Part shown: positions 18,922-32,312 of the stretch, one piece after another
How the letters are laid out: every line of letters begins with the position of its first letter
Position numbering within the stretch: position 1 is the stretch's first letter
Source of the DNA: Desulfomonile tiedjei DSM 6799
GTDB lineage: Bacteria > Desulfobacterota > Desulfomonilia > Desulfomonilales > Desulfomonilaceae
DNA length: 64,000 nucleotides
Assembly (NCBI RefSeq): GCF_000266945.1
Contig: NC_018025.1
Span: forward strand, 4,778,001 to 4,842,000
Direction: 5' to 3'
The notes under the pieces: model-generated
What the model saw: only the letters and a program-made list of their open reading frames with translations
Databases searched by the model: none
What the model was told of the DNA's origin: nothing
Made by a program: the position numbers and the translations under genes

Positions 18922-19752
18922 TTATTTGCTGCCGAATCCCCCGAAATGTAACCTCGATTGAGGGCATGCGTCCAGGCACTGTGCGCAATTGGTGCACAGG
19001 AGATTGCCGCCTTCTTTGAACGGAGCCAATCCCATGGGACAAACTGCTGAACAGTGGTTTTCCGTGCAGCACGGCGACCTTACGGCTTTCACTTTGTTGA
19101 TGACAGTCATGGTGAATGGAGCACGGAACAGAGAGAGAAACGATCCCGTCGGGCAAAACAACCTGCACCAGAAGCGGGGCAAAACGGCAGTTTCCATCAC
19201 GAGCAAAGCAGCTATGAATAAGAATTCGGGGGATAGGCTGCGCTCTTTGACGAAAATCATAGCTTCCGTGCTGAATATTCCCGGAGCATGCACGTAGTTC
19301 AAAACGGGAATGGAAATCGCCCCTGCCAGGGCTGTGCCAAAAAGCAAGAAACTCAATCTAACAGCGTTCGCCTTAAATGAGCTTTTCACCGGGAGCGCTT
19401 TTTCGAGAGGGCGGCGCAATACTCGTTCACCAAAGAATCTCCTGACTTCTGCAGCACCGTCCGCAAGCAAATGATAAGGGCACATCCAGCCACACCAGAC
19501 TCTCCCGAAAACGAGTGCGAATAATACCGGAAACAGTGCAGCGCCGAGCAAAAGCACCGTCAACCTGCCTGAAGCGAAAACGGCCTGCAGAATCACCACA
19601 GGATCGGTAACGCTAAGCCCCCCGATATTTACCGCATAAAGTGTCCCGGTAACCGCATATATTTCAAACAGGTTCAGCACCGGAACCAGAAACACAAACA
19701 CCAGCACACTAAATTGGACTACTCGCCTGTGAGATCTGTACATCATACCCAT
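18922..19752 (-). CDS. napH: NapH-type membrane iron-sulfur protein
   Basis: Polyferredoxin-like inner-membrane protein thought to pass electrons from quinol to NapG or NapA. About 276 residues from ATG 19752, which has GGAA at suitable spacing; the open frame continues upstream to 19821 but that part is repeat DNA (family 3). Four membrane segments (for example VVQFSVLVFVFLVPVLNLF, LTVLLLGAALFPVLFALVF) are followed by cytoplasmic-type cysteine motifs WCGWMCP and WCRLFCP. Two [4Fe-4S] motifs close the protein: CTENHCSAVCP, which is unusual in spacing, and CTNCAQCLDACP. It is last in the nap cluster, separated from napG by about 200 bases of repeat. Confidence 0.88.
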   Translation of the reverse strand: MGMMYRSHRRVVQFSVLVFVFLVPVLNLFEIYAVTGTLYAVNIGGLSVTDPVVILQAVFASGRLTVLLLGAALFPVLFALVFGRVWCGWMCPYHLLADGAAEVRRFFGERVLRRPLEKALPVKSSFKANAVRLSFLLFGTALAGAISIPVLNYVHAPGIFSTEAMIFVKERSLSPEFLFIAALLVMETAVLPRFWCRLFCPTGSFLSLFRAPFTMTVINKVKAVRSPCCTENHCSAVCPMGLAPFKEGGNLLCTNCAQCLDACPQSRLHFGGFGSK

Positions 19753-19956
19753 GGGGTTTCCAAAGCGATAAGATCGGGGAAACCCTTCTTGAAAGAAGTG
19801 TTTCCCCAAGCCCCTTCTCAAGAACTTCTAATATTCGTCTAGCTTGGTATTTTCCGTAGGAAAAACACCAAGCTAGACCAGTATTAAAAGTTTTTGGAGG
19901 GGATTGGGAACCTTTTTACAAAAAGGTTCCCCAATGTTATTGCCTTTGAATCCGTG
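19753..19956. repeat. Three-hairpin nested repeat (family 3), copy 2
   Basis: Hairpins at 19776-19807 (GGGGAAACCCTTCTT...GTGTTTCCCC), 19838-19877 (TCTAGCTTGGT...ACCAAGCTAGA) and 19904-19935 (TTGGGAACCTTTTTACA...GGTTCCCCAA), with AGAACTTCTAATA and TATTAAAAGTTTTT pairing around the middle one. This is the copy-1 architecture in reverse. The outer hairpins are nearly the same sequence as copy 1, but the middle stem is different and still fully paired. It lies between napG and napH. Confidence 0.8.
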
Positions 19957-20733
19957 TCAATCCCAGCCTTCGATTTTTTTTGGAGTCTCGTATGGGAAAT
20001 CGAATTTCGGGAGTTCTTTTGTCCCGTCGATCCGGGACTTTTGTTCCAGGAGCTGTTCTCCTTTCAAAACGCCTGCGGATCCCTGTGCAGGTACTTGAGC
20101 GGATTCATAGTGACCTTTGGCTTTACGAAAGTAGAATCCCGCTTCGTCAACCCTTCCCATACCCGTCGGAACGATGTTGACGGCACGTCGGGGGCGGGTA
20201 GGACAGCGCTCCACACATATTCCGCACCCTACGCATGCATCCAGTATTTCCGGACAGAGATTCTTTCTCAGTACGATAGCTTTGTCCTGAAGCGGACACA
20301 CATTATAGCAGGTATTGCAGAGCGCCCCGATTTTCCGCCCGGATTCGTCCGGCAGCACGTCGTGATCCAGAAAAAGATGGCTGTAACAGATGGAGGAATC
20401 GATAACTGCACGCCCCATAGTGACTTTTTCCGGAGCCACCAGTTCATTATCAAGCGCACCTGTCGGACAGAGCCTGGAACAGGCCATACACAGGTAACAC
20501 GCTTTCTGCTCGGGAAATACGTACGGAGTTCCCATGGTGACTCCGAGACCGGCCCTCTTGATCGATCCGTACGGGCACACTTCCAGGCATCTGTTGCACC
20601 GGATGCATAGCGCCATGAAATGCTTTTCGTCGACTGCTCCGGGCGGCCTCATTCGATTGTGCAGGAACGTGCCGGTAAACGGATTTTGGCCTTTTGAGAA
20701 AATGTTTTGGAGCAGTTCTTTCAGTCCGGACAA
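19957..20733 (-). CDS. napG: NapG-like four-cluster ferredoxin without Tat signal
   Basis: Ferredoxin-like protein with four [4Fe-4S] motifs: CIRCNRCLEVCP, CYLCMACSRLCP, CNTCYNVCP with its partner Cys in LCPEILDACV, and CVGCGICVERCP. Position and motif pattern match NapG, the periplasmic ferredoxin partner of NapH. The open frame starts at ATG 20775, but its first codons lie in a dispersed repeat (20770-20800) and have no ribosome site. TTG 20733 follows AGGGAG by eight bases and gives MSGLKELLQNIF (258 residues). With either start I see no twin-arginine signal or membrane segment, which is unusual; the protein would then be cytoplasmic, like NapF. The C-terminal 60 residues lack motifs. Confidence 0.82.
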   Translation of the reverse strand: MSGLKELLQNIFSKGQNPFTGTFLHNRMRPPGAVDEKHFMALCIRCNRCLEVCPYGSIKRAGLGVTMGTPYVFPEQKACYLCMACSRLCPTGALDNELVAPEKVTMGRAVIDSSICYSHLFLDHDVLPDESGRKIGALCNTCYNVCPLQDKAIVLRKNLCPEILDACVGCGICVERCPTRPRRAVNIVPTGMGRVDEAGFYFRKAKGHYESAQVPAQGSAGVLKGEQLLEQKSRIDGTKELPKFDFPYETPKKIEGWD

Positions 20734-20769
20734 TGAGCATTCTCCCTGCGGGGGCCAAGTCTGCAAAAT

Positions 20770-20980
20770 TGTCATTGCGAGTGAACCGAAGCAATCTCCC
20801 TGGGCTGCAGTTGCACGTCATACCAATTCGTTTTTATGAACCTAATTTGGCCGGCACGGAGGCCGGCCGCCACCAGCTTTTGGTAGGGTCCGGCGTCTCT
20901 GCCGGACCTATTGGTTCTATGGTTTTTTTAGCGAAACGGTATCAGAAGATTGCTTCATCGATTCGCTCCTCGCAATGACA
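20770..20980. repeat. Cluster of dispersed repeats between napD and napG
   Basis: Contains two copies of the motif GATTGCTTC-(about 8)-CTCGCAATGACA facing opposite ways (20770-20800 and 20944-20980), and between them a family-1 palindrome at 20848-20915 with GGCCGGCACGGAGGCCGGCC and GGTCCGGCGTCTCTGCCGGACC. The latter contains GGCGTCTCTGCCGG (20892-20905), one base off the IS110 target. No gene. Confidence 0.75.
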
Positions 20981-21006
20981 CTTTCTCAAGTCAACTGGAC
21001 AAAGTG

Positions 21007-21046
21007 CAATTGGGGAACTCTCTTGATGAAGAAGGTTCCCCAATTG
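21007..21046 (-). terminator. Strong hairpin downstream of napD
   Basis: CAATTGGGGAAC...GTTCCCCAATTG is a 12-base stem with a partly paired inner section (CTCTT...AAGAAG) and little loop. It resembles the outer hairpin of the family-3 repeat. It lies 18 bases after the napD stop, so it could end or attenuate the long nap transcript before napG-napH. There is no clean T-run on the minus strand. Confidence 0.5.
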
Positions 21047-21064
21047 CCGTGAACAGGAGAATAA

Positions 21065-21328
21065 TCAGCTTCCTGATACTATCTTCTCCACCTCATCCTC
21101 GAAATTGATATACATGTGTGTAATATCGAGGATTTCAACGATCTGTGATTTCAAGCGGTCGCAGAGATCTTCGAGTTCGCCCTGGCTTTCAGCTTCCAGA
21201 TTCACCACGAGCTCCGTTCTTAAATCCGAAACCGCCTGAACCGTGACTTGGGGGAATTCCTCCAGTTGTTTCAAGACGCTCTCATATGAGCCGGGCTCGA
21301 TGAAAAGAGCGCTTCCTGTAATCACCAT
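21065..21328 (-). CDS. napD: NapD, chaperone for periplasmic nitrate reductase
   Basis: Small cytoplasmic protein (87 residues) that binds the twin-arginine signal of NapA and holds it until the cofactor is inserted. The sequence begins MVITGSALFIEPGSYESVLKQLEEFPQ-like with the alternating beta-alpha-beta pattern of NapD (ferredoxin fold), and includes DLRTELVVNLEAES. It follows napA after 13 bases. The call rests on size, fold pattern and position. Confidence 0.85.
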   Translation of the reverse strand: MVITGSALFIEPGSYESVLKQLEEFPQVTVQAVSDLRTELVVNLEAESQGELEDLCDRLKSQIVEILDITHMYINFEDEVEKIVSGS

Positions 21329-21341
21329 ATTGTGCCGCCTG

Positions 21342-23735
21342 TCATGCTCTTGAGGGAAACGGCGTATCCACGCTGGAGATCACGGTCATGTCGGCTACGT
21401 CTTTCGGATCTCCGAACCGTTCGATCCTTACCGCACAGATCTTGAATTCCGGTTGTTTCGATCCGTCGTCGAACGCATCTATGGTGACCCGATTGATCAT
21501 TCTGTCCCAATCCTGATCGAACCAGGGTACGAACAGAATTCCAGGCAAGGAACTCTTCACTACCCTCGCAGGCAAGATGTTGAATCCTCGCCTGCTGATC
21601 ATTTTGACCAGGTCTCCGTTGTTGATTCCATATTGTTTTGCATCCGACGGATGTATTTCCACGTATGCATTGGGCTGCGACCGGGCTATTTCAGGCACAC
21701 GCATCGTCATGGTCCCGCTGTGCCACTGTTCTATGACACGACCCGTGGTGAGAAAGAATGGATACTCCTTGTCAGGCGGTTCTTCAGGCCCTTTGTACGG
21801 TCTCAGGAATACGTTCGCTCTTCCTTCGTGTTTCTGGTCCGCATAAAAATAGATGAGCGCTTGTGGAGGGACTTTGACGATTTCAGGCATGTCCATGATG
21901 GGATCTTTGCCGCGAACGTAGCGCCTCGCTGTTCCGGGGCTCTTCTCATCAGGACACGGCCATTGCAGGCCTTCTTCCATCTTCAGGAGCCGGTCGTACG
22001 TGATGCCGTACAGGGAATGCTCCGTCATCTTCACACACTCGCGGTAATCGTCCCAGGCCATCTTGTAGTTCGCTGCAGGATCGTCCCCGTTCCAGGGAAT
22101 CAGTTTTTCCAGGCCCATGCGTTTGGCCAGTTGAGCTGCAATCCACAGGTCGGGTTTTGCCTCTCCCGGTGGATCGGTACATTTCGAGGTGAGTTGGCTT
22201 CTTCGCTCCGAACAACCGTACACTCCGCCTTTTTCATAGATGAAGGCCGCGGGCAGAATCACATCAGCCAACTGAGTGGTTCTCGTGGGAAATATGTCCG
22301 CGACGACGAGAAAAGACTCCTTCATGCCCTTGTGATACTTGTGGCAGTTTGGTAACGACTGAGCCGGATTCGTGGTGGTGATGAACATACCTTTGAGAGG
22401 CTTGGAAGCGTCGTTTTCGGCTCCGAGCTTTGCGAACATTTCCATGGTGTGGAAGCCGGGTTTCGGATCGATTTTTCCTGCGGGAATCTTCCATGCTTTC
22501 TCCACTTGCTCTCGAACCGCTGGATTAGCCACCGGTCTCGTGCCGGGGAGAAGATGGCTGAGCGAACCGGTTTCGCGAACTCCTCCGCACGCGTTAGGTT
22601 GACCGGTGAGTGAAAAGGAATCCGCTCCTTCCTTGCAGATGTTTCCCGTAATGAGGTGTAGGTTATGGACCAGATTATTCGCCCAAACACCTCTTGTGCG
22701 CTGATTGAGCCCCATGGTCCACAGACTCATGGTCGGGCCCTGGGTCGCGAACAGCCGGGCGGCTTCCACAATGTTTGCAGCAGGGCAGCGGGTGAGCTTT
22801 TCCACTGCTTCAGGGGTAAATTGTTCGAGAAATTGTGTGTAAGCGGCGAAATCCACCACCTGCGTGCCTGTGGTAAATCTGCACAAGTTCTCGATGTACC
22901 ACTTGTCCACCCAGTTGTTCTTCACGATTTCCCGAGCCATGCAATGGAACACCGCGAGATCGGTGCCCGGGTCTGCAGGGAGCCAGATGTCTGCGATTCG
23001 TGCAGTGGAAGTAAGCCTCGGTTCGCACACAATCACTTTGATGTTGTCAGGATTGGAGAGTTTCTGTCTCGTTACTCGTCTGAAGATGATCGGATGACAC
23101 TCAGAGAGATTCGATCCCACGAGAAAGAATGTCCTGGCCTTCTCGATATCCGCGTATGAACCTGCCGGTTCGTCGGTGCCGAAAGTAGTAACATATCCGC
23201 CCACAGCGGAAGCCATGCATAATCGAGGATTCCCGTCCACCATATTGGAGCCGAATCCACCTTTCCAGAGCTTGTTGAAGGTGTAGCTCTCCTCTGTCAT
23301 GCACTGGCCGGAACCGTAATACGCAACAGCATCTTTGCCGTGCTTTTGCTGCAGTTCCATGAACTTCTTCGCGACAAGATTCAGCGCTTCATCCCAGGAG
23401 ACTCGTTTGAACTTGTCGTCCGCTCCGCGAACCAGCGGATATTTGAGGCGGTCGGGATGGTACATGCTCATGTACCCTTTGAATCCCTTCACGCAAAGAA
23501 ATCCGAAGTTTGTTGCCGCTTGAGGGTTACCTCGGATAGCGGCTACTCTGCCGTTCTTCACCCCCACGTACACGCCGCATCCGGTACCGCAAAATCTGCA
23601 TGTGCCTTTGATCCATTTGTCCACATCCACAACATCCTCGGACGCGTGTGACGTTCCTGCAAACGGAATATTCAAAGCCGCTGCCGCGAAACCGGCGGCC
23701 GTCATTTTGATCATTTCCCTACGAGTCACGCTCAT
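21342..23735 (-). CDS. napA: Periplasmic nitrate reductase catalytic subunit NapA
   Basis: Molybdenum bis-MGD enzyme that reduces nitrate to nitrite in the periplasm. ATG 23735 follows GGAGGAAACC, giving 797 residues; the frame upstream is not used. The N-terminus TRREMIKMTAAGF is a twin-arginine signal ending near SHA. The [4Fe-4S] motif is CRFCGTGCGVYVGVKNGR...CVKGF. DGNPRLCMASAVGGYVTTFG contains the Mo-ligand cysteine, typical of NapA rather than formate dehydrogenase, which has selenocysteine or Cys in another context. QPNACGGVRETGSLSHLLPG is also typical. By memory it resembles the monomeric Desulfovibrio desulfuricans NapA, which works without NapB; no napB is present here. Confidence 0.95.
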   Translation of the reverse strand: MSVTRREMIKMTAAGFAAAALNIPFAGTSHASEDVVDVDKWIKGTCRFCGTGCGVYVGVKNGRVAAIRGNPQAATNFGFLCVKGFKGYMSMYHPDRLKYPLVRGADDKFKRVSWDEALNLVAKKFMELQQKHGKDAVAYYGSGQCMTEESYTFNKLWKGGFGSNMVDGNPRLCMASAVGGYVTTFGTDEPAGSYADIEKARTFFLVGSNLSECHPIIFRRVTRQKLSNPDNIKVIVCEPRLTSTARIADIWLPADPGTDLAVFHCMAREIVKNNWVDKWYIENLCRFTTGTQVVDFAAYTQFLEQFTPEAVEKLTRCPAANIVEAARLFATQGPTMSLWTMGLNQRTRGVWANNLVHNLHLITGNICKEGADSFSLTGQPNACGGVRETGSLSHLLPGTRPVANPAVREQVEKAWKIPAGKIDPKPGFHTMEMFAKLGAENDASKPLKGMFITTTNPAQSLPNCHKYHKGMKESFLVVADIFPTRTTQLADVILPAAFIYEKGGVYGCSERRSQLTSKCTDPPGEAKPDLWIAAQLAKRMGLEKLIPWNGDDPAANYKMAWDDYRECVKMTEHSLYGITYDRLLKMEEGLQWPCPDEKSPGTARRYVRGKDPIMDMPEIVKVPPQALIYFYADQKHEGRANVFLRPYKGPEEPPDKEYPFFLTTGRVIEQWHSGTMTMRVPEIARSQPNAYVEIHPSDAKQYGINNGDLVKMISRRGFNILPARVVKSSLPGILFVPWFDQDWDRMINRVTIDAFDDGSKQPEFKICAVRIERFGDPKDVADMTVISSVDTPFPSRA

Positions 23736-23766
23736 GGTTTCCTCCACAAAACCGAATAGCGGCCTT

Positions 23767-24339
23767 TTAGAATCCCGGCACTTTGAACCTGTCTTCCCGT
23801 CCGGGCGAGAATTTTTCATACGTCTGTATCTTGTGCACCGTGAACCAGTGGCTCTTGTGACAGTATGAACAATTGGTGACCAGCGCCTGAGCGGGCATGT
23901 TATGTACCTGCGCGGAATGACATCCGATGCACACTGCCTTGTCAGGTCTGGCGCGATAATTGTTCACGTCCCCGTGACAGATGCCGCATTTCACGTTATT
24001 GATCCCGTGTTTGGACCCAAGCCACTGTTTGTAGTTCTCAGGGGTTTCTTTCTGGTGGCAATCCATACAGTTCTGTTTTCCGAACTGAACCCTGTGACAA
24101 TCAGGCCGTTCGCCCGGCAGAAGAGGAGGTGCCACGAACTCTCTCCATTTGGGGTCCAGCACACTCGATGTTGCGGGCTTGGGACAGTCGGGGCAATCTT
24201 TCTCCTGGCCGCCTACCGGAAGCACCCAGACCGCAAACATAATGGCTGCAAGACAAACGGCTTTTTCCAGCCTGCGAATTCCCGCAGAGGAAACCGGACC
24301 GGGAAAGAGGGACAGTAGTACATCCGAGGGCCTTTTCAT
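23767..24339 (-). CDS. napM: NapM-like tetrahaem cytochrome c
   Basis: Exported cytochrome of 190 residues with one N-terminal hydrophobic segment (ACLAAIMFAVWVLPVGG is approximate: KAVCLAAIMFAVWVLPV) and four CXXCH haem sites: CMDCH, CGICH, CIGCH and CSYCH, plus a CPDCP that is not a haem site. The position directly upstream of napA and the four haems match NapM of the Desulfovibrio nap operon, where it is the presumed electron donor to NapA in place of NapB. It ends 31 bases before napA. A gap of 111 bases separates it from the HEAT-repeat gene, so napM could also have its own promoter. Confidence 0.85.
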   Translation of the reverse strand: MKRPSDVLLSLFPGPVSSAGIRRLEKAVCLAAIMFAVWVLPVGGQEKDCPDCPKPATSSVLDPKWREFVAPPLLPGERPDCHRVQFGKQNCMDCHQKETPENYKQWLGSKHGINNVKCGICHGDVNNYRARPDKAVCIGCHSAQVHNMPAQALVTNCSYCHKSHWFTVHKIQTYEKFSPGREDRFKVPGF

Positions 24340-24450
24340 CTTCTACTCCTGTTGTTTATCCAAATGCACGAGCACTTTTTCCCGAGAAACTTGATTCTGC
24401 GACCTGGTTGTGAAGCTTCGGGGTTCCAACGGTCGCCCACGATATCTCCT

Positions 24451-25284
24451 TTATTTCTTACTCCTGAGCGCCTCCACCAGAACCGGCACAGCAGGGGAAC
24501 CGATGGCGGCAAGGATGTTTCCGGCAGCCCTCGAAGACCTGTCGTCTCCTTTGAGCACCACCTGGACGAGCTGTTCGACTGCATTCGGCCCGATCTCCTT
24601 GAGCGCGGCAGCAGCACGCTCTGCAGCCGGTTTTTCTCCCTTCTTGAGCACCTCGATCAGGGGATCTACCGCATAGAATCCCATGCGTCCCAGCGTCTCA
24701 CTTGCAGCTTGTCCCGTTTTCGAATCGCCGGATTGAATCGCCTTGATGAGATGTTCCACCGCAGGTTGTTCGACTTTCACAAGGGCCAGAATTGCACTGT
24801 CCCGAACACGCTTGTTGTCGTCACCAAGACAAAGGATGAGATTGGGGACTGCCGGAGCGCTCTGTTTACCGATGCCGAAAAGAGCCAGCGCAGCAGCCTC
24901 TCTCGTCATGTAATCCTTGTCTTTCAATGCATCCGTAAGCGCAGGAACAGCGGGGGCCGCATCGGGCCCGATCTCTGCGAGTGCCTCCATGACATTGAGA
25001 CGGACGATCTCGTTCGGGTGCTTGAGGGCCTTTACCAGCAACGGAACAGCCTCTTTGGCTTTAGTGCCGTTTCGTTTGATCAGCTTTGTGGCATTCAGGA
25101 CTACAGTGGGATCCGGACTTTCCAAATCTTTCACGATCTTGTCCAAATCCTCATTGGGCGCTGCTGCAAAAGTCGGGAGCGAGGCGAATGCTATGAAGAC
25201 AATGAACAGCGCCGTCGCACACTTCACCAATGCAGTGATCCGTAATTCAGTTAATTTCAGCATCTTCACACCACTCGGATTCAT
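24451..25284 (-). CDS. Exported HEAT-repeat protein of the nap cluster
   Basis: 277 residues with a signal peptide (CATALFIVFIAFASLPTFAAA) and then about six HEAT-like helical repeats of about 37 residues: VVLNATKLIKRNG, IVRLNVMEALAEIGPDAAPAVPALTDALKD, TREAAALALFGIGKQSAPAVPNLI, KRVRDSAILALVKV, KTGQAASETLGRMG, AAERAAAALKEIGPNAVEQLV. Such repeats bind proteins; no catalytic motif is seen. The ATG overlaps the stop of the NrfD-like gene (ATGA), so it is part of the operon. I infer a scaffold or assembly role for the periplasmic cytochromes or NapA; nothing in the sequence proves it. Confidence 0.85.
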   Translation of the reverse strand: MNPSGVKMLKLTELRITALVKCATALFIVFIAFASLPTFAAAPNEDLDKIVKDLESPDPTVVLNATKLIKRNGTKAKEAVPLLVKALKHPNEIVRLNVMEALAEIGPDAAPAVPALTDALKDKDYMTREAAALALFGIGKQSAPAVPNLILCLGDDNKRVRDSAILALVKVEQPAVEHLIKAIQSGDSKTGQAASETLGRMGFYAVDPLIEVLKKGEKPAAERAAAALKEIGPNAVEQLVQVVLKGDDRSSRAAGNILAAIGSPAVPVLVEALRSKK

Positions 25285-26528
25285 GCAGGAACATGATGAT
25301 GTCCCAATCGTGCTGTCTCCGCGTTCCTGGCAGACGTGAATTCACCTGTTTCAATGGGGATAATGATCTTCAGAATGGTCGTGAGAATCAGGAGACCTAT
25401 TGCCCAAATTCCCATTGCCACCAGAAGTTCCAGTGTTGTCGGAACGTATTCCCAGACCTCGCCAAGCGGAGCCGGGATGAATCCGGGAATGATCAGTCCC
25501 ATTCCTTTCTCTATCCATATGCCGATTATGATCAGGACGCACCCGACATTCAGGGTGACGAAGTTCTTTCGTGTGGTTGGAATGAGGAAAATGAGAAATG
25601 CGATGACGTTGAATATCAGGGCCGTCCATATCCACGGGACCAAAACGCCTTTCCCGTGCAACCCGGCATAGAGATAGAGAAGCGGCGAAAGATGATGCGT
25701 ATTCGAATAGAGTTCCTTGTAAAATTCAGCCAGCAAGAGGAAGAGGTTGACGGCCATTGCAATGGAAATCATCTCTGCGATCTTGAACAGAGCTTCGTCT
25801 TTCACATGAAACCTCGTGTAATGCCTGACAATCTGATAGAGAATGATCACCAGTGCCGGACCGGAACAAAAAGCTGACGCAAGAAAACGGGGGGCGAGAA
25901 TGGAAGCGTTCCAGAAGGGTCTGGCTGCAAGGCCGTTATAGATGAATGCGGTGACCGTATGAATGCTCACGGCCCAGGGGATCGACAGCAAGATAAAAGG
26001 CCAGATGAACCGCATATTTACCGGGCGATTGTTGTACGCTTTCCACAGGATGTATCCGGGTATAAAAAGATTCAGGAACATGTACCCGTTCAGGACGACG
26101 ATGTCCCACCCAAGCAGCGACTTCGGAAGATTCAGGATTCCCAGGCCCGGCAGGAGATGCCAGATCCGATCCGGTCGGCCCAGGTCCGCGGTGACAAACA
26201 TCATACACATGGCAAGAGCACTGACAGCAAGCGCTTCTCCCACAATGACGATGTCCCGGATGGGGCCGAAATCGTACAGATAGGCGGGAATGATCAGGAG
26301 AACCGCCGCAGCGGCCACTCCAACGAGAAAGGTAAAATTGCCGATATAGAATCCCCACGAGACGTAACTCGTCATTCCCGTAATGATAAGGCCCTTTTCC
26401 AATTGCACCGTGTAAGCTGCTATCCCGATCCCCGCAAGAATCGTAAGGCCCAGCATCCAAATGTAGTACAACGGCGGGCCTGTGAAGAGCCGCTTTATTG
26501 CCGATACGATGAATCCGGATCTCGCCAT
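25281..26528 (-). CDS. NrfD/DsrP-family quinol-interacting membrane protein
   Basis: Polytopic inner-membrane protein of 415 residues with about ten hydrophobic helices, of the NrfD/PsrC/DsrP family that exchanges electrons between menaquinol and a partner ferredoxin. Features seen: GPPLYYIWMLGLTILAGIGI at the start, YVSWGFYIGNFTFLVGVAAAAVLL, MMFVTADLGRPDRIWHLLPG, and PWAVSIHTVTAFIYNGLAARPFWN. The last stretch and the length favour the ten-helix DsrP type over eight-helix NrfD. It sits 11 bases after the four-cluster ferredoxin, as in NrfCD, TtrBC and DsrOP pairs. I infer that it feeds electrons from the quinone pool into the cytochromes and NapA in place of NapC. Confidence 0.87.
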   Translation of the reverse strand: MARSGFIVSAIKRLFTGPPLYYIWMLGLTILAGIGIAAYTVQLEKGLIITGMTSYVSWGFYIGNFTFLVGVAAAAVLLIIPAYLYDFGPIRDIVIVGEALAVSALAMCMMFVTADLGRPDRIWHLLPGLGILNLPKSLLGWDIVVLNGYMFLNLFIPGYILWKAYNNRPVNMRFIWPFILLSIPWAVSIHTVTAFIYNGLAARPFWNASILAPRFLASAFCSGPALVIILYQIVRHYTRFHVKDEALFKIAEMISIAMAVNLFLLLAEFYKELYSNTHHLSPLLYLYAGLHGKGVLVPWIWTALIFNVIAFLIFLIPTTRKNFVTLNVGCVLIIIGIWIEKGMGLIIPGFIPAPLGEVWEYVPTTLELLVAMGIWAIGLLILTTILKIIIPIETGEFTSARNAETARLGHHHVPA

Positions 26529-26539
26529 TGGTCCCTCAT

Positions 26540-27487
26540 TTAGGAAAAGAAGTAGTAGAATTTGGGTTGTGTATTGAGATCCTCTTTCAGACGGAACACT
26601 CTTTTGGTCTGGATGATCCTGCTGATCTCGGAATCAGGATCGAGAAGATTGCCGAATTTTCGAGCACCCACCGGGCAGGCTTCGACACATTTGGGATACT
26701 GCCCCAGGCGTACGCGTTGAATGCAAAAGGTGCATTTTTCCACGACATTACGCATTCTCGGTCGGTTCCCGAGGTAATGGGTCTTCGTATTGACTTGTTC
26801 GGCAGGAATTACCGGATCGGCAAAATTGAACCACCTGCCCATGTAAGGACACGCTGCCATGCAGTACCGGCATCCGATGCACCAGTTGTAATCGACGACA
26901 ACAATGCCGTCGGGTTCTGTCCAAGTGGCTTGTACAGGGCAGACCTTGGTGCACGGGGCATTTGCGCAGTGCTGACATTGCACTGGCATGTAGTAATAAC
27001 CGGCCTCCGGCACTTCTTCGGGGTCGTAATAGATGGTGGATTCCTCGAGGTCCATGTTGCCGTCTTTGAACCTGAGAACCCGTATGTAATGCATTTGAGG
27101 ATTTCGAGTGTGATTGTTCTCGTCGACGCACGCGTACACGCATCGCCTGCAGCCGATACACCGTTGGATGTCCAACGCGTATCCGAACAAAGTTCCATCT
27201 ATGGGCGCTTCGGTTCCCACAACGAAATCCTTGCCATATTTGTTTTTGTACTCGGCCTTGAGGCGCTCGACTGTTTCTTGAATCTCTTTTTCGGTCATCC
27301 TCTTAAAATGGTTTTGAACAAATTCCTGCCACGAACATGAACTTACCGAAAGTAATCCCAGGATAGTAGCTGCGCCTTTAAGAAACGTGCGTCTATCGGG
27401 CTTCACGTCGTCACGGCTGTGTGAACCGAGTGATGCGGGTTTATCGACTTCTGCGACTGATTCAAGAGTTTGCTTCGGGTCGGGCAT
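26540..27487 (-). CDS. Periplasmic four-cluster ferredoxin subunit (NrfC/DsrO-like)
   Basis: 315 residues. An N-terminal twin-arginine signal DRRTFLKGAATILGLLSVSSC directs it to the periplasm, and the Cys at its end could be lipidated. Four [4Fe-4S] motifs follow: CIGCRRCVYAC, CQHCANAPCTKVCP, CIGCRYCMAACP and CTFCIQR...CVEACP. This is the NrfC/TtrB/DsrO arrangement. It is the partner of the adjoining NrfD/DsrP-type membrane protein, passing electrons between the quinol site and cytochromes. Intergenic gaps are only 11-14 bases on each side, so it is co-transcribed with its neighbours. Confidence 0.9.
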   Translation of the reverse strand: MPDPKQTLESVAEVDKPASLGSHSRDDVKPDRRTFLKGAATILGLLSVSSCSWQEFVQNHFKRMTEKEIQETVERLKAEYKNKYGKDFVVGTEAPIDGTLFGYALDIQRCIGCRRCVYACVDENNHTRNPQMHYIRVLRFKDGNMDLEESTIYYDPEEVPEAGYYYMPVQCQHCANAPCTKVCPVQATWTEPDGIVVVDYNWCIGCRYCMAACPYMGRWFNFADPVIPAEQVNTKTHYLGNRPRMRNVVEKCTFCIQRVRLGQYPKCVEACPVGARKFGNLLDPDSEISRIIQTKRVFRLKEDLNTQPKFYYFFS

Positions 27488-27500
27488 GGCTCTAAAACCT

Positions 27501-28097
27501 TCAGTGCTTGACCTGGATCTTCGGCGTCCAGGGTTTTGCGGGTGCAGGCATTGGCTCCAGAGGCTTGAACTTCGGTTGGTGCGGATTGTGACAGTTCACA
27601 CAGAGAAAATACTGCTTCTCTCCATTCCAGTTGCCGGTCCGCTTCCCGTGAATACCGTTTCGCCAGTCCCTGTATTTTGTCCCGTGGCATTTGCCGCAGA
27701 GTAAATATGATTGCTCGAATTCGATCGGTTTTCCATCGCTCAGCGGCAGGAGCACGTTCCGGTTATCCGGATGATGGCAATCCAGGCACCAGACGCGAAC
27801 CCCGCCATGAGCCAGACGGATGTTCCTGTGGACCAGCAGATCCTCCCGCCGGTTGAAGTTCACGGGAAAATCCTTTTCAGGTCCGTGACACGCCCTGCAA
27901 GGGGTAATGGTCTTGGGCAAAGGGGTGACCGGAACGGGGAACTCCTGGCCGGATTCAACTGCGGCAGTGTCTTCCGATTTTGCCTCATCGTCGAGCGTTA
28001 CCTGGGCCGGAATCACTCCGGGCACCAGGCACGCCACGGCTAAGGCTGAAGCCGCGACCAGGAGCACTGTTTTGAGTTTTGCGATAATTCCCTTCAT
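27501..28097 (-). CDS. Exported tetrahaem cytochrome c
   Basis: 198 residues, signal peptide (LLVAASALAVACLVPGVIPAQ), four CXXCH sites: CRACH, CLDCH (followed by another His), CGKCH and CVNCH. The C-terminal tail is Pro-rich (EPMPAPAKPWTPK). It resembles no named cytochrome that I can recall with confidence. Between the octahaem enzyme and the ferredoxin/quinol module it is the obvious electron shuttle. It follows the octahaem gene after 31 bases. Confidence 0.85.
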   Translation of the reverse strand: MKGIIAKLKTVLLVAASALAVACLVPGVIPAQVTLDDEAKSEDTAAVESGQEFPVPVTPLPKTITPCRACHGPEKDFPVNFNRREDLLVHRNIRLAHGGVRVWCLDCHHPDNRNVLLPLSDGKPIEFEQSYLLCGKCHGTKYRDWRNGIHGKRTGNWNGEKQYFLCVNCHNPHQPKFKPLEPMPAPAKPWTPKIQVKH

Positions 28098-28128
28098 GGA
28101 TTCGCTCTCTCCTGGTTGAGACCGGTTC

Positions 28129-29490
28129 TTACTTGGCCTCTTTTCCGCCGTACCGTTGCTGATAGAATTGCTCGAGTTTGTTGAGCTCGTCTTTACTCAT
28201 TCCTTCCTTGTACCATTTGTGTTGAGGATCGGAAAATACGAACTCATTCAGGATCGGAGCCGCTTGATCCTTGCCGCCCATGATTCTTTCCACTTCAGGG
28301 ATGAAATAGATGTAGAAGTGCTTGGCGACCTCATACATTCCGTGCCACCATGCGTAATCCGGGCCCATCATGGAAGCCCCGTGTCGTGCTCTTCGGCCTT
28401 CGTGGTGCCACAATTCATAGTAGGTCCAATCCAACTTGTCATCCATGTCGGCTTTTGTGAGCTTACCCATGTCCATGAGTTTCTGACGAATCTTGGTGGC
28501 AGGGATGGCAAACTTATTGTTGTAGAGCTCTACCAGGTCGTCGTATTGCGAATAGAATCCTTCGGTCGTGAAGTCCGAATGACACTGGCGGCAGACGTCT
28601 TTCATTTTCTCTCGGCGATCTTTCCAATGGGTGAGCTTCTTGGAAACAGCAGGTCTCAAAGTCCAGGAGATCCGTTCCCCTACATCATGGGTTTTTCCTT
28701 GATTGGGTGTTGCGCTGATATGGCAGGTGGCGCACGTTGCGGAATCCTGGTAATCCACACCCACAACCCATTCGTTATTGCCCATATTCATCTTGTCTCT
28801 GTGGGCCTGATACAGAATCCCATGTTTGGATTCGTTGTACACTTCGATCTGCGGATGGTCGGGGCCGAGATGACATTTGCCGCATGAATCGGGCCGCCTG
28901 GCCTGCTCTTTGGAAAAGGAATGTCTCGTATGGCATGCCGAGCAGCTACCCTTGCTTCCGTCGGGATTTATCCTGCCGATACCCGTATTGGGCCACGTGG
29001 AAGGATCGAGCTTGCCGTCTTTCAAGAGCTTGACATTAGATCCGTGACACTGACGACACCCCGTGGCAACTGCAGCCGGTCCACCCACTACGGTTCCGAG
29101 GTAATTATCGAGAGAGTTCAGGATGTCCGCGCCTTTTGCGTGGTGAGAACCCTGCTGTTGATCGAACTGATCTTTATGGCAGCGGGAGCAGTCCTTGGGG
29201 CTCACGATGGTCGCAATCCAGAATCCCCTGTGGTCATGTCCATCAGGATCTCCGGGGGTTTTATCGGTCTTTTTTTCCGCTCTGTGGCAGTCGTAGCAAT
29301 TCACTCCCGCCTGCCCCATTTTGCCCGAGCGCCACAGTTTGTGGAGGCCCGGTGACTTGAGTTCATGGCATTTGATACAGACCTGTCCTTCCGGCGATCC
29401 ATACAACTTCGGATCTACCTTGACCGCTGCGTAGGTCTGCCAGGAAGAGAGAAGAACCGACAATGCGACCAGTATGAGAACCTTTCTCAT
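28129..29490 (-). CDS. Octahaem cytochrome c of the hydroxylamine oxidoreductase (HAO) family
   Basis: 453 residues from ATG 29490, which has GGAG seven bases upstream (a nearby ATG at 29505 is less likely). Signal peptide ILVALSVLLSSWQTYAA; eight CXXCH motifs (CIKCH, CYDCH, CSRCH, CRQCH, CSACH, CGKCH, CATCH, CRQCH). HAO-family stretches: CGKCHLGPDHPQIEVYNESKHG, CATCHISATPNQGKTHDVGERISWTLRP and YELWHHEGRRARHGASMMGPDYAWWHG (each broken here by known spacing in the family). HAO proteins either oxidise hydroxylamine or, in the epsilonproteobacterial form, reduce nitrite to hydroxylamine. Whether the cross-linking Tyr of the oxidative form is present needs an alignment; GPDYAWWHG is the place to look. 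Next to nap genes I infer nitrite reduction. Confidence 0.86.
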   Translation of the reverse strand: MRKVLILVALSVLLSSWQTYAAVKVDPKLYGSPEGQVCIKCHELKSPGLHKLWRSGKMGQAGVNCYDCHRAEKKTDKTPGDPDGHDHRGFWIATIVSPKDCSRCHKDQFDQQQGSHHAKGADILNSLDNYLGTVVGGPAAVATGCRQCHGSNVKLLKDGKLDPSTWPNTGIGRINPDGSKGSCSACHTRHSFSKEQARRPDSCGKCHLGPDHPQIEVYNESKHGILYQAHRDKMNMGNNEWVVGVDYQDSATCATCHISATPNQGKTHDVGERISWTLRPAVSKKLTHWKDRREKMKDVCRQCHSDFTTEGFYSQYDDLVELYNNKFAIPATKIRQKLMDMGKLTKADMDDKLDWTYYELWHHEGRRARHGASMMGPDYAWWHGMYEVAKHFYIYFIPEVERIMGGKDQAAPILNEFVFSDPQHKWYKEGMSKDELNKLEQFYQQRYGGKEAK

Positions 29491-29634
29491 GTTTCCACTC
29501 CCCATATCAGTGAAATTACTCCTGAAAACATCGTTTTAAGCCGAATTCCGGTCGGATTAGTGATCCGAATGCCCGCAGTTTTCTAGCACCGCTCGGGTAA
29601 TTTTTCCGCTTAATCCAATTATGACATGCTCTCC

Positions 29635-29671
29635 TGTAAGAGCGGTGTAAAATGCTGTAAAGATCCTGTAA
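29635..29671 (-). promoter_or_regulatory. Four phased TGTAA repeats upstream of the HAO/nap operon
   Basis: TGTAA occurs at 29635-29639, 29646-29650, 29656-29660 and 29667-29671, start-to-start spacings of 11, 10 and 11 bases, that is one per helical turn. On the transcribed (minus) strand they read TTACA. They lie about 145-180 bases upstream of the octahaem start codon. This looks like an array of sites for a regulator that binds one face of the DNA. I could not identify a convincing -35/-10 or sigma-54 promoter in between. Confidence 0.45.
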
Positions 29672-30180
29672 AGTTGCTTCGGCCTTACGCGCTCGTCCGA
29701 GAGCCACCTGCAAATTCCAGCCTTCTAGAGTATAATTTACAATTGCCGATTCGCTTTTCTTTGCTTCTGGGAGGCTGGAGGCATCCTTTGCTGCGGACGA
29801 CGTAAGGCCGTCTAAGCACACAGCCGGGACACCCCAGCCTTTGCTATGTCATGTGCATAACTGCGAAATGGTACAATACCAATGTGCTTCATAAAGAGAA
29901 TATTGAAAAATCTGTTATTTGCCGGGACCGGATTTGCTCCCGCCGGTGGCGGGATTACTTCTTTGAACGCACATTCCCATGAAAGTCCCGAGCTACACAG
30001 CAAGGGTTTGAGGTTTTCTTATGTTCATGGTTGATCTCCATTCGAGAAAGCCGGCAAGTTTAAGAAGATTCCCATGCGTGGTCTCCGAAAGGAGCCGACA
30101 GTTTGTTGTGCCAGCCGGCGATTGGTCATGTTGGTATTCGAGCTCACGGCTTCAGTTTGCGTTTCGACTTTGATGCGCTT
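29672..30180. other. Region between the HAO/nap operon and the second IS110 transposase
   Basis: No convincing gene. A GC palindrome CTCCCGCCGGTGGCGGGA lies at 29938-29955. The last 150-180 bases may be the 3' non-coding end of the IS; in IS1111-type members of the family the guide RNA lies there. I could not locate the element's boundary. Confidence 0.4.
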
Positions 30181-31476
30181 CTAAGTGAATATAGGTGCTT
30201 GGGCTGTTGCTGCCGGTTGATCCAGGGGTACGAGTTCGTACCCAATGAGAGACGCTTGCCAGGTAAGGTATTTTATCTTGGCCTCTCGGTTTCTTTCGAG
30301 CAGGTAAGTCTCTCCGAGATCTTTGAAATGTACTCCGTATTTGAGTACATGGTAAATGGTTTTAAGGATTTTGTGGGCTACTGCGATTATGGCCTTTTTG
30401 GCCCCCAAGCGCGCTTTCAGGGCGTAATATTTGGCCCGGTAGTAGGATCCTCGTGCCTTGATTGCCGGCCAGGCTACTTCAACCATGATGGTTTTTAGGT
30501 GGTTCTTTTTGACAGGGCTCTTGCCACTGAATCGCTTGCCACCGCTTTGGTTGTTTCCGGGAGAGAGGCCACACCAGGAAGCGAGGGCATGGGCGGTGGG
30601 GAACTCAGTCAGGGTTGGGCCTATCTCGGCCAATATGGCATGGGAGGAAACCGCGCCTACACCGGGAATCTCTTCGAGCCGCCGGATCGCTTCCTGAGCG
30701 TCTCTCATTACTTCCTTGATACGGGATTCAAGGATAGAGATTTGGGTCTCTAGGTTTTCGATCGTGTTGAGCAAAAGAGACAACAGGAACCGGTGATGGG
30801 CCTCGAAGAAGCCTTGGACAGAGCGATGGAGCTCCGCTGCCTTGTCTTGCAGCGATCCTCTCAGACAATTTTCAACCTCGGAAATCGTAGGGGAATTGTT
30901 GCCTGAGATTAAGAGTTTCATGAGGTTGCGGCCCGTTGCGCCGAACAGGTCGGATACCACGGAATCGATTTTAATGTTTGACTGTTGAAAGAGCTTGTGA
31001 ACGCGGCGTTGGAAATCCCCGAGGTCTTCTTTGTAGTTTCTTCTCATTCGGGTCAAATCACGCCACTGTCTTTGATGTTTCGGAGGAATAAAGGCGGCCT
31101 TGAGCAGGCCGTGACGCAAGAGTCCGGCTAGCCATCTGCTGTCGCTGATGTCGGTCTTATGGCCTGGAACATTTCTCATGTGTCGGGCATTCACCAAGAT
31201 AACCTTGACGGAATCTTCAAGGACGTTATGAACAGGAGTCCAATATGGTCCTGTACTCTCCATCGCAATTACAGGACACTCTCGTTCCAGGAGCCATTCC
31301 TTGAGTTTGATAAGGTCATCTGTGAATGTTTGGAACTCACGCATTTCGGATTGCTCTGTACCGGAACTGTCTGAATACAACAGACACGCTGACACGGAAT
31401 TTTTGTGGACGTCCAATCCGCACGATATCTCGTGCACGACTGATATGGTAGTGTTATTCTGGTTTCTTGAGGGCAT
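30181..31476 (-). CDS. IS110-family transposase, second type
   Basis: 431 residues from ATG 31476, chosen because AGGAGG lies seven bases upstream (the frame opens at 31506). The N-terminal DEDD domain shows SCGLDVHKNSV, VIAMESTGPYW and KTDISDSRWLAGLLRHG. The C-terminal Transposase_20 domain shows IPGVGAVSSHAILAEIG and SPGNNQSGGKRFSGKS, with the likely catalytic Ser in NNQSGG. It is only distantly related to the other IS110 element in the window (316 residues). I cannot define the ends of the IS, as no second copy is in the window. No frameshift is visible. Confidence 0.93.
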   Translation of the reverse strand: MPSRNQNNTTISVVHEISCGLDVHKNSVSACLLYSDSSGTEQSEMREFQTFTDDLIKLKEWLLERECPVIAMESTGPYWTPVHNVLEDSVKVILVNARHMRNVPGHKTDISDSRWLAGLLRHGLLKAAFIPPKHQRQWRDLTRMRRNYKEDLGDFQRRVHKLFQQSNIKIDSVVSDLFGATGRNLMKLLISGNNSPTISEVENCLRGSLQDKAAELHRSVQGFFEAHHRFLLSLLLNTIENLETQISILESRIKEVMRDAQEAIRRLEEIPGVGAVSSHAILAEIGPTLTEFPTAHALASWCGLSPGNNQSGGKRFSGKSPVKKNHLKTIMVEVAWPAIKARGSYYRAKYYALKARLGAKKAIIAVAHKILKTIYHVLKYGVHFKDLGETYLLERNREAKIKYLTWQASLIGYELVPLDQPAATAQAPIFT

Positions 31477-31616
31477 GACACGCCTCCTAGTGTTGTTTGA
31501 TTTCATCTCATACTAGGCAGGTAGCCATGCTCTCATCTCAGTTCAAGGGACTTTCATCCTTCGTTGTGGCGCTCTTCGCCATGGGAGTTGGTACAAAACA
31601 CTGCCGGAGGGCTCAC

Positions 31617-31923: not shown

Positions 31924-32312
31924 AGAGACTGTCTCAAAACTGTGCTGACACTCAGAATCGTGCCACGCTGACCACCCGGGGCTGAAGCCCCGGGCTATTT
32001 TCTGCCGCCCCTTCGCGGCTCAGGAAGCTGACGTCCCAGAGGGACGCAGGATAATAGCCTGGTAATTCATTGCCGGGAAGAAAGAAGTCGTGCCACGATT
32101 TAGGATAAATTTCGACTTTTGAGACATTCTCGTCAACCCGTGGATAGCTGAGGATGCGATGACCAACGGGAATCGCATCTGTCGAGGTCTTTCGCGACCG
32201 ATACGGTTCGTTTCGCTCACCACATGCTACGTGAGCTACAATCCCGCCGGGAAGATGATGGGAAATTCGTGGCACAATCTGGGATAACTTTCAACTTTTT
32301 GAGACAGTTTCT
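31924..32312. repeat. Composite inverted-repeat element of about 390 bp
   Basis: The left end GAGACTGTCTCAAAA...CAGAATCGTGCCACG is mirrored at the right end by CGTGGCACAATCTGGG...TTTTTGAGACAGTTTC. A third copy of the same motif (CGTGCCACGATTTAGG...CTTTTGAGAC) lies inside at 32091-32130. Between them are strong GC hairpins: CCCGGGGCTGAAGCCCCGGG (31976-31995), GCCGCCCCTTCGCGGC and GACGTCCCAGAGGGACG. It has no coding frame, so it looks like a small non-autonomous element, inserted into a family-2 repeat on the left. Confidence 0.6.

Follow-up and report, generated by a model that had tools for sequence, protein, structure and literature searches.

Ten co-oriented genes of Desulfomonile tiedjei DSM 6799, located at 18922–29490 on the minus strand of a 64-kb stretch of the genome (the window, to which positions refer unless genome positions or another locus are named), may well form a two-step nitrate-ammonifying respiratory unit that would convert nitrate to nitrite and nitrite to ammonium, a reading towards which we lean from sequence comparisons. 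In order, the genes encode an octahaem cytochrome c (OCC), a tetrahaem cytochrome c, a ferredoxin, a DsrP-like membrane protein, a HEAT-repeat protein, and NapM-like, NapA, NapD, NapG-like and NapH-like proteins. The host assembly consists of 6,527,027 bases in two contigs, and the cluster lies on the contig of 6,500,104 bases. The reading was adopted because the gene order recurs in other genomes, NapA is of the 2NAP type, the OCC carries a Met379/Trp387 signature, no NrfA exceeds the cut-off, and OCC–NapA linkage recurs in several places on the OCC tree. It was also adopted because the hosts of a sister 11-gene cluster, Thermosulfurimonas dismutans and Dissulfuribacter thermophilus, reportedly ammonify nitrate by respiration with NrfA absent (PMC5276818, 2017). 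A first-pass annotation of the same DNA had listed these ten genes in this order; all proved to be open frames, and family models and CxxCH counts upheld its assignments. It had described the cluster as fused, and the genes are merely adjacent. Its OCC start at 29490 agrees with the start Met of relatives, and its NapA and NapH starts were corrected, most likely to 23735 and 19752.

Sequence and fold both assigned the OCC (28129–29490), the proposed nitrite reductase, to the HAO family. The protein contains eight CxxCH motifs and scored 89.7 bits with PF13447 (cut-off 21.9), and it gave no match to PF02335 (NrfA) at E 0.001. A profile of 20 OCC sequences matched 4QO5 best among solved structures (E = 3.5e-69), followed by Nitrosomonas HAO and anammox relatives. 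The fold model obtained from 75 sequences had a predicted local distance difference test score (pLDDT) of 89.9 and a predicted template modelling score (pTM) of 0.84; the first model, with a pLDDT of 66.9, was set aside. Comparison of the model with solved folds returned 4QO5 at the top (Z 31.3, root-mean-square deviation 2.8 over 383 residues); HAO-type entries came next (Z 21.9–24.2), with NrfA and octahaem nitrite reductases at Z 10.4–11.7. 4QO5, the octahaem cytochrome of Ignicoccus hospitalis, is therefore the nearest solved structure to the OCC by both measures.

In addition, D216–H217 of the OCC (numbered in the 458-aa frame starting at 29505) align with HAO 267–268, presumably active-site residues, and D216 is kept in 108 and H217 in 105 of 108 OCC homologues. 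Reductive HAO-like proteins have been described that lack the cross-linking Tyr, many of them with Trp in its place and Met eight residues earlier (PMC8940962). The OCC has Met379 and Trp387, which occur together in 101 of the 108 homologues; the column of Trp387 was set by the Met–Trp spacing and not by alignment to HAO Tyr467. Position 379 is Lys in four homologues (L120, L127, L134 and L143), position 387 is a gap in three, and Tyr occurs there in none. The Lys-379 OCCs come from Nitrospira-type records and adjoin Rieske and cytochrome b genes. The earlier reading of an HAO-like octahaem cytochrome without the cross-linking Tyr was thereby borne out: Trp387 and Met379 are in place, no such Tyr is present at the sequence level, and an oxidative HAO identity was ruled out because this residue is missing. 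By motif, residue signature and fold, the OCC is an HAO-family protein of the reductive (eHao-like) type, and it is predicted to reduce nitrite or hydroxylamine.

The second catalytic protein, NapA (21342–23735), is a periplasmic nitrate reductase of the D. desulfuricans type. Among solved structures, the 2JIM/2NAP group scored 764 bits and the next group 535, and the top match belongs to a periplasmic nitrate reductase (E = 1.5e-228). The Mo-binding region is kept, with NPRLCMASAVGG identical to the 2NAP group. This result is in line with the Desulfovibrio-type Nap with NapM proposed initially. The NapM-like tetrahaem cytochrome (23767–24339) has four CxxCH motifs and a marginal PF14522 match (24.9 bits, cut-off 24.8), and was named from its position and from 37–40% identity to the corresponding gene in the 11-gene loci. 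A NapD-type chaperone (21065–21328; PF03927, 36.2 bits, cut-off 28), a NapG-like polyferredoxin (19957–20775; NapG model) and a NapH-like membrane ferredoxin (18922–19752; TIGR02163 and PF12801) complete the nap part. Inspection by eye, back to the previous stop, revealed no clear export signal at the NapG-like N-termini of the window and nine family genomes, two of which are less clear (L040, with RR; L210, with RK and a short hydrophobic stretch upstream). In contrast, NapG of the 11-gene loci L168 and L169 starts with a twin-arginine-like lipoprotein signal. Electron delivery to NapA by way of NapGH, as is usual, may therefore not apply to this cluster.

The absences noted in the first-pass annotation stood in part. 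In the whole genome, no NrfA scored above the PF02335 cut-off, and the E. coli control was recovered. NapC (PF03264) had no match among the ten cluster proteins, but one NapC/NirT-family protein above cut-off is encoded at genome position 5,313,653. NapB had no Pfam match among the ten proteins, a search that was not extended to the whole genome. The NapC/NirT-family protein has five CxxCH motifs and comes after an eight-haem protein of 414 aa (L159:228–2091, about 5.313 Mb of the genome).

The three genes after that of the OCC would provide its quinol module. The tetrahaem cytochrome (27501–28097; four CxxCH) is a proposed NrfB-like carrier. The DsrO/NrfC-like 4Fe-4S ferredoxin (26540–27487) has Fer4 domains and a twin-arginine motif, RRTF at residue 32, and scored 188 bits with the DsrO model, missing its cut-off of 200. 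The DsrP-like membrane protein (25281–26528), a member of the NrfD superfamily and the proposed quinol-oxidising subunit, scored 427 bits with the DsrP model (cut-off 350) and 110 bits with PF03916. A better DsrP match of the genome, at genome position 3,163,312, is 46% identical to it. The HEAT-repeat protein (24451–25284; PF13646, 105.8 bits) is the least conserved of the ten, with 34–62% identity in relatives.

In E. coli, nrfABCD encodes in order a catalytic multihaem protein, a small multihaem protein, a 4Fe-4S protein and a membrane protein. The first four genes of the cluster specify four parts of equal kinds in equal order, except that the catalytic protein is of the HAO type, with no PF02335 match, instead of NrfA. 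The roles of NrfB, NrfC and NrfD are given in PMC12285233. The module also resembles DsrMKJOP, since the membrane protein is above the DsrP cut-off and the ferredoxin near that of DsrO. However, no DsrM, DsrK or DsrJ match was listed for the ten proteins, and the genome's better DsrP match lies elsewhere. DsrJ has three haems, whereas the cluster cytochrome has four. With the DsrP cut-off reached, the DsrO cut-off missed and these three matches lacking among the ten, identification of the cluster as a DsrMKJOP complex was rejected.

From the observed parts, their order and conservation, the sequence signatures, the repeats described below and the kinase and regulator neighbours in relatives, we infer the OCC reaction and the electron route as follows. 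Menaquinol would be oxidised at the DsrP-like protein, and electrons would reach the OCC, and perhaps NapM and NapA as well, by way of the exported ferredoxin and then the tetrahaem cytochrome. NapA, fed by NapM, would reduce periplasmic nitrate to nitrite, and the OCC would then reduce nitrite, mostly all the way to ammonium, which is judged the likeliest product on grounds of analogy. The whole would amount to an nrfABCD-like quinol-to-nitrite branch, with the OCC in the place of NrfA, joined to napMADGH. The route from quinol via ferredoxin and cytochromes, already suggested in the first-pass annotation, appears the most economical reading.

The gene order was compared with 17 other genomes, of which 15 share the family of the window and two represent a different family within the phylum. 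The full ten-gene order was present in nine, and parts in the same order in the remaining eight. Because the full order recurs in 9/17 genomes, the cluster is more than a chance arrangement. Seven of the eight partial cases are compatible with a cut at a contig end; the exception, G397 (locus L208), has no NapM within 1.6 kb after the HEAT gene. Homologues of the tetrahaem gene were detected in 16 of 18 family genomes, including 8/8 with at least 90% completeness and at most 5% contamination. In a metagenome-assembled genome of D. tiedjei (L080), the OCC is 88% identical and the order matches until the contig ends inside NapA.

The OCC itself was compared more widely. Candidates numbered 129, from 120 loci (L037–L156), eight further ones and the window. 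Two duplicates and 19 candidates that the simple gene caller or its threshold did not recover were left out, which leaves 108 rows. The OCC of L042 (G077) was detected by tblastn, with no frame from the gene caller, and L170 yielded no OCC. Loci L168, L169 and L171–L173 were chosen for long or split OCC matches or small genomes, not for NapA. NapA was present on the examined stretch in 20 of the 108 rows, accompanied by a DsrP-like module in seven, an NrfD-like one in four, Rieske/cytochrome b in five, multihaem cytochrome–cytochrome b in one and no recognised module in three, where "none" means not seen on the examined stretch, often owing to a contig end. The linkage of OCC and NapA falls in several places on the OCC tree, with 13 changes, some of the absences being contig ends. 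In L113, L122, L131, L142 and L171, Rieske/cytochrome b genes immediately precede those of OCC and NapA, so that the pair also occurs with a different quinol module. A NapC-type protein is encoded near the OCC in three loci (L123, L136 and L141); that of L123, a Shewanella record, scored 181 bits with PF03264.

DsrP-like modules accompany OCCs of two lineages, that of the window and that of L060, L062–L065, L140 and L144. A single clade for all DsrP-module OCCs (6 + 7 rows) was rejected, with a difference of 215 log units and an approximately unbiased test probability (p-AU) of 4e-75, and a single clade of the cluster OCC with the OCCs of the 11-gene loci was disfavoured (p-AU 0.006). These tests used a quick tree of 48 chosen rows, with the groups named after the larger tree was seen. 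The rejection of one clade by the two lineages suggests that the pairing of OCC with a DsrP-like module arose more than once. The DsrP-like proteins form two groups beside the other DsrP of the genome; their tree is unrooted and its branches are long.

The first-pass annotation knew of no described system of this composition, and here it has to be amended. PMC5276818 describes the 11-gene cluster of T. dismutans and D. thermophilus as a c cytochrome, a 4Fe-4S protein, NrfD, an HAO-homologous multihaem cytochrome, two unknowns and napMADGH; for T. dismutans, the components had already been catalogued in PMC4911364. Its four-gene locus was proposed to act in nitrite reduction or, alternatively, on sulfur compounds (PMC5276818). 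We found four loci with this order. They share with the Desulfomonile cluster one block holding an HAO-type cytochrome, a c cytochrome, a 4Fe-4S protein, an NrfD-superfamily protein and napMADGH, as well as the proposed role, and in loci of that order the adjacent genes encode a regulator and a kinase of the Tll0287 type. However, the OCC follows NrfD there and comes first in Desulfomonile, the membrane protein is NrfD-like instead of DsrP-like, and two other genes occupy the place of the single HEAT gene; the published order thus differs while the proposed function is equal, and the Desulfomonile cluster was not classed as the 11-gene cluster itself. The OCCs are 36–42% and the NapA proteins about 50% identical between the two. 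The NrfD-family protein of the four loci is only 20–23% identical to the DsrP-like protein, and therefore a different membrane protein fills the equivalent place in the 11-gene scheme. Between OCC and napM, the longer gene (L168:7676–9160, L172:7137–8411) is of the Alginate_exp type, possibly an outer-membrane barrel; PMC5276818 labels both genes between the HAO-like cytochrome and napM unknown.

Accordingly, the cluster is a variant of a published one: its quinol module differs, its upstream box is conserved, and it is widespread in its family. New here are the DsrP-module OCCs in two separate lineages and the conserved TTTACA box. Among the titles and abstract openings listed from the open-licence PMC literature, none described the Desulfomonile cluster. 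Two other systems are more distant. Deferribacter autotrophicus also has napMADGH and an HAO-type octahaem cytochrome in one cluster, but that cluster has nine genes with hcp and a decahaem cytochrome, and no NrfD/ferredoxin module is reported among the nine (PMC6896113). The eHao of Campylobacterota, in the reverse hydroxylamine:ubiquinone redox module (reverse-HURM; PMC3701875), is an HAO-type protein run reductively and, by published description, shares the Trp/Met signature (PMC8940962); its partner CycB, a membrane tetrahaem cytochrome by the account in PMC5276818, has no counterpart in the Desulfomonile cluster. The ten proteins include no NapC/CycB-type PF03264 protein, and the cluster was not assigned to the reverse-HURM. 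In other phyla, too, clusters that include NrfD have been reported close to nap or nar genes (PMC10732223).

Upstream of the OCC gene lies a predicted operator of four TTTACA direct repeats (29635–29672, minus strand; starts 0/11/21/32), which ends 145 bases before the OCC start. A possible −10 element, CATAAT (29618–29623, minus strand), follows 11 bases after the last repeat. The 11/10/11 spacing was taken from an upstream alignment of six loci, with the motif chosen after they had been viewed, and was later tested by a genome search and in family loci obtained afterwards. The four-repeat pattern matched the genome once at up to three mismatches, and the backwards control gave 0. Upstream sequence was available for 14 family genomes, and 13 of them, that of the window included, carry the box (at least 20 of 24 letters). 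It is missing from G405 and likewise from G077, a member of another family (best 15 of 24). With this spacing, one stray match (19 of 24) occurred in L175 and 0 in 2.2 Mb of letter-shuffled sequence. A spacing of 11/11/11 proved wrong, with nothing in the genome or window and two stray 19-of-24 matches among the loci. Among the 11-gene loci, the box was the top match of the locus only in L173 and the third in L172, and in L168 and L169 it was not among the top four matches upstream of the cluster.

A kinase gene stands divergent beside the box in 11 of the 14 family genomes. Ten of these also have a regulator gene there, and in the remaining one (L206) the contig breaks off within the kinase. 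The L037 kinase has a Tll0287-like domain and the L039 regulator an OmpR-type DNA-binding domain. The host encodes a kinase orthologue at 413 kb of its genome (60% identical, 731 bits, next best 127), beside a regulator 60% identical to that of L039. In the window, an IS110-type-transposase-like frame (30181–31506, minus strand; named by eye) lies upstream where relatives have the kinase/regulator pair. OmpR/PhoB boxes have a general form, and from this form and the position of the repeats the OmpR-class regulator probably binds them; with the Tll0287-domain sensor kinase, it would probably switch the unit on. In a more ambitious version, one DsrOP-like module would feed the OCC and, via NapM, NapA, the unexported NapG-like protein and NapH would act on the cytoplasmic side, and the two-component system would have this unit as its sole target. 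That would make it a single-switch, energy-conserving chain from nitrate to ammonium; as a whole we consider this version rather doubtful.

Several observations weigh against the nitrate-ammonifying reading. The nearest solved relative, 4QO5, has Phe at the aligned position of Trp387. NapA falls under the NCBIfam NapA cut-offs (664 of 904 and 634.5 of 930.6), a comparison in which 2NAP itself was not scored; therefore, automatic naming may miss it. In favour of the reading, 7/8 tested NapA proteins beside OCCs in other loci pass both cut-offs, and the eighth (L062) is cut by the contig. NapG-like (102.6 of 269) and NapH-like (101.8 of 213, TIGR02163) are also below cut-off. Moreover, 88 of the 108 OCC rows lack NapA on the examined stretch, partly through contig ends, and the OCC therefore has other contexts. 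Gaps between genes run from −4 to 111 bp from OCC to NapD but widen to 289 bp ahead of napG and 204 bp ahead of napH, so that the single operon of the first-pass annotation may not extend over all ten genes as one transcript. Finally, an enrichment, HP, dominated by another Desulfomonile, which may or may not carry the cluster, was negative for nitrate as acceptor (PMC7773648). The same source gives nitrate as an acceptor for D. limimaris and lists D. tiedjei as "not tested".

The main rival reading concerns the product. The OCC might stop at hydroxylamine (or nitric oxide), with a cytoplasmic hybrid-cluster protein completing the reduction to ammonium. Such a reverse-HURM has been proposed for Nautilia, where the reported data are consistent with free hydroxylamine (PMC3701875); Hao plus Hcp has likewise been proposed in Deferribacter (PMC6896113). 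The genome does encode two Prismane-family proteins above cut-off, one beside a Crp/Fnr-like frame (named by eye). However, the ten-gene cluster holds no hcp, and PF03063 also covers CO dehydrogenases, so that one of the two may be another protein. We regard this route as unlikely, if the strongest competitor. Less likely still is a unit that protects against nitrogen oxides instead of supporting growth: the hosts are sulfate reducers, and D. vulgaris NrfA detoxifies and does not respire (PMC12285233), but a complete nitrite-making NapA system is ill-suited to pure protection, and the cluster holds a dedicated quinol module. That the four-gene part handles sulfur compounds (tetrathionate, polysulfide or sulfite) and adjoins nap only by coincidence or for shared control is very improbable, since, although the membrane protein scores as DsrP and this alternative was named for the sister cluster (PMC5276818), the OCC is of the HAO type by sequence and fold and is linked to NapA in several separate tree places with differing quinol modules.

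The nitrate-ammonifying reading would have consequences for annotation. The potential to convert nitrate to ammonium is usually scored by nrfA. With this marker, a unit conserved across a whole family would go undetected, and the membrane protein of the cluster would be labelled DsrP and taken as sulfate reduction. If the reading is true, the hidden nitrate ammonifiers would include a classical dehalogenating sulfate reducer together with most members of its family, and HAO-type cytochromes would pair with interchangeable quinol modules. D. tiedjei is in culture, so the proposal is directly testable.

A search of the genome for octahaem tetrathionate reductase gave no match, but with no control recovered either, this negative carries no weight. 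The genome has a second HAO-family octahaem cytochrome (L157:9290–10846, about 4.972–4.974 Mb), which is gapped at the Trp387 column and whose neighbouring frames resemble rubrerythrin and bd oxidase. Between napG and napH, an inverted repeat (19819–19896) has 35-base arms that are 86% complementary. Beyond the transposase-like frame, at 31975–32020 on the plus strand, the window contains an Acido-Lenti-1 RNA (Rfam RF01687; 49 bits, gathering score 37).

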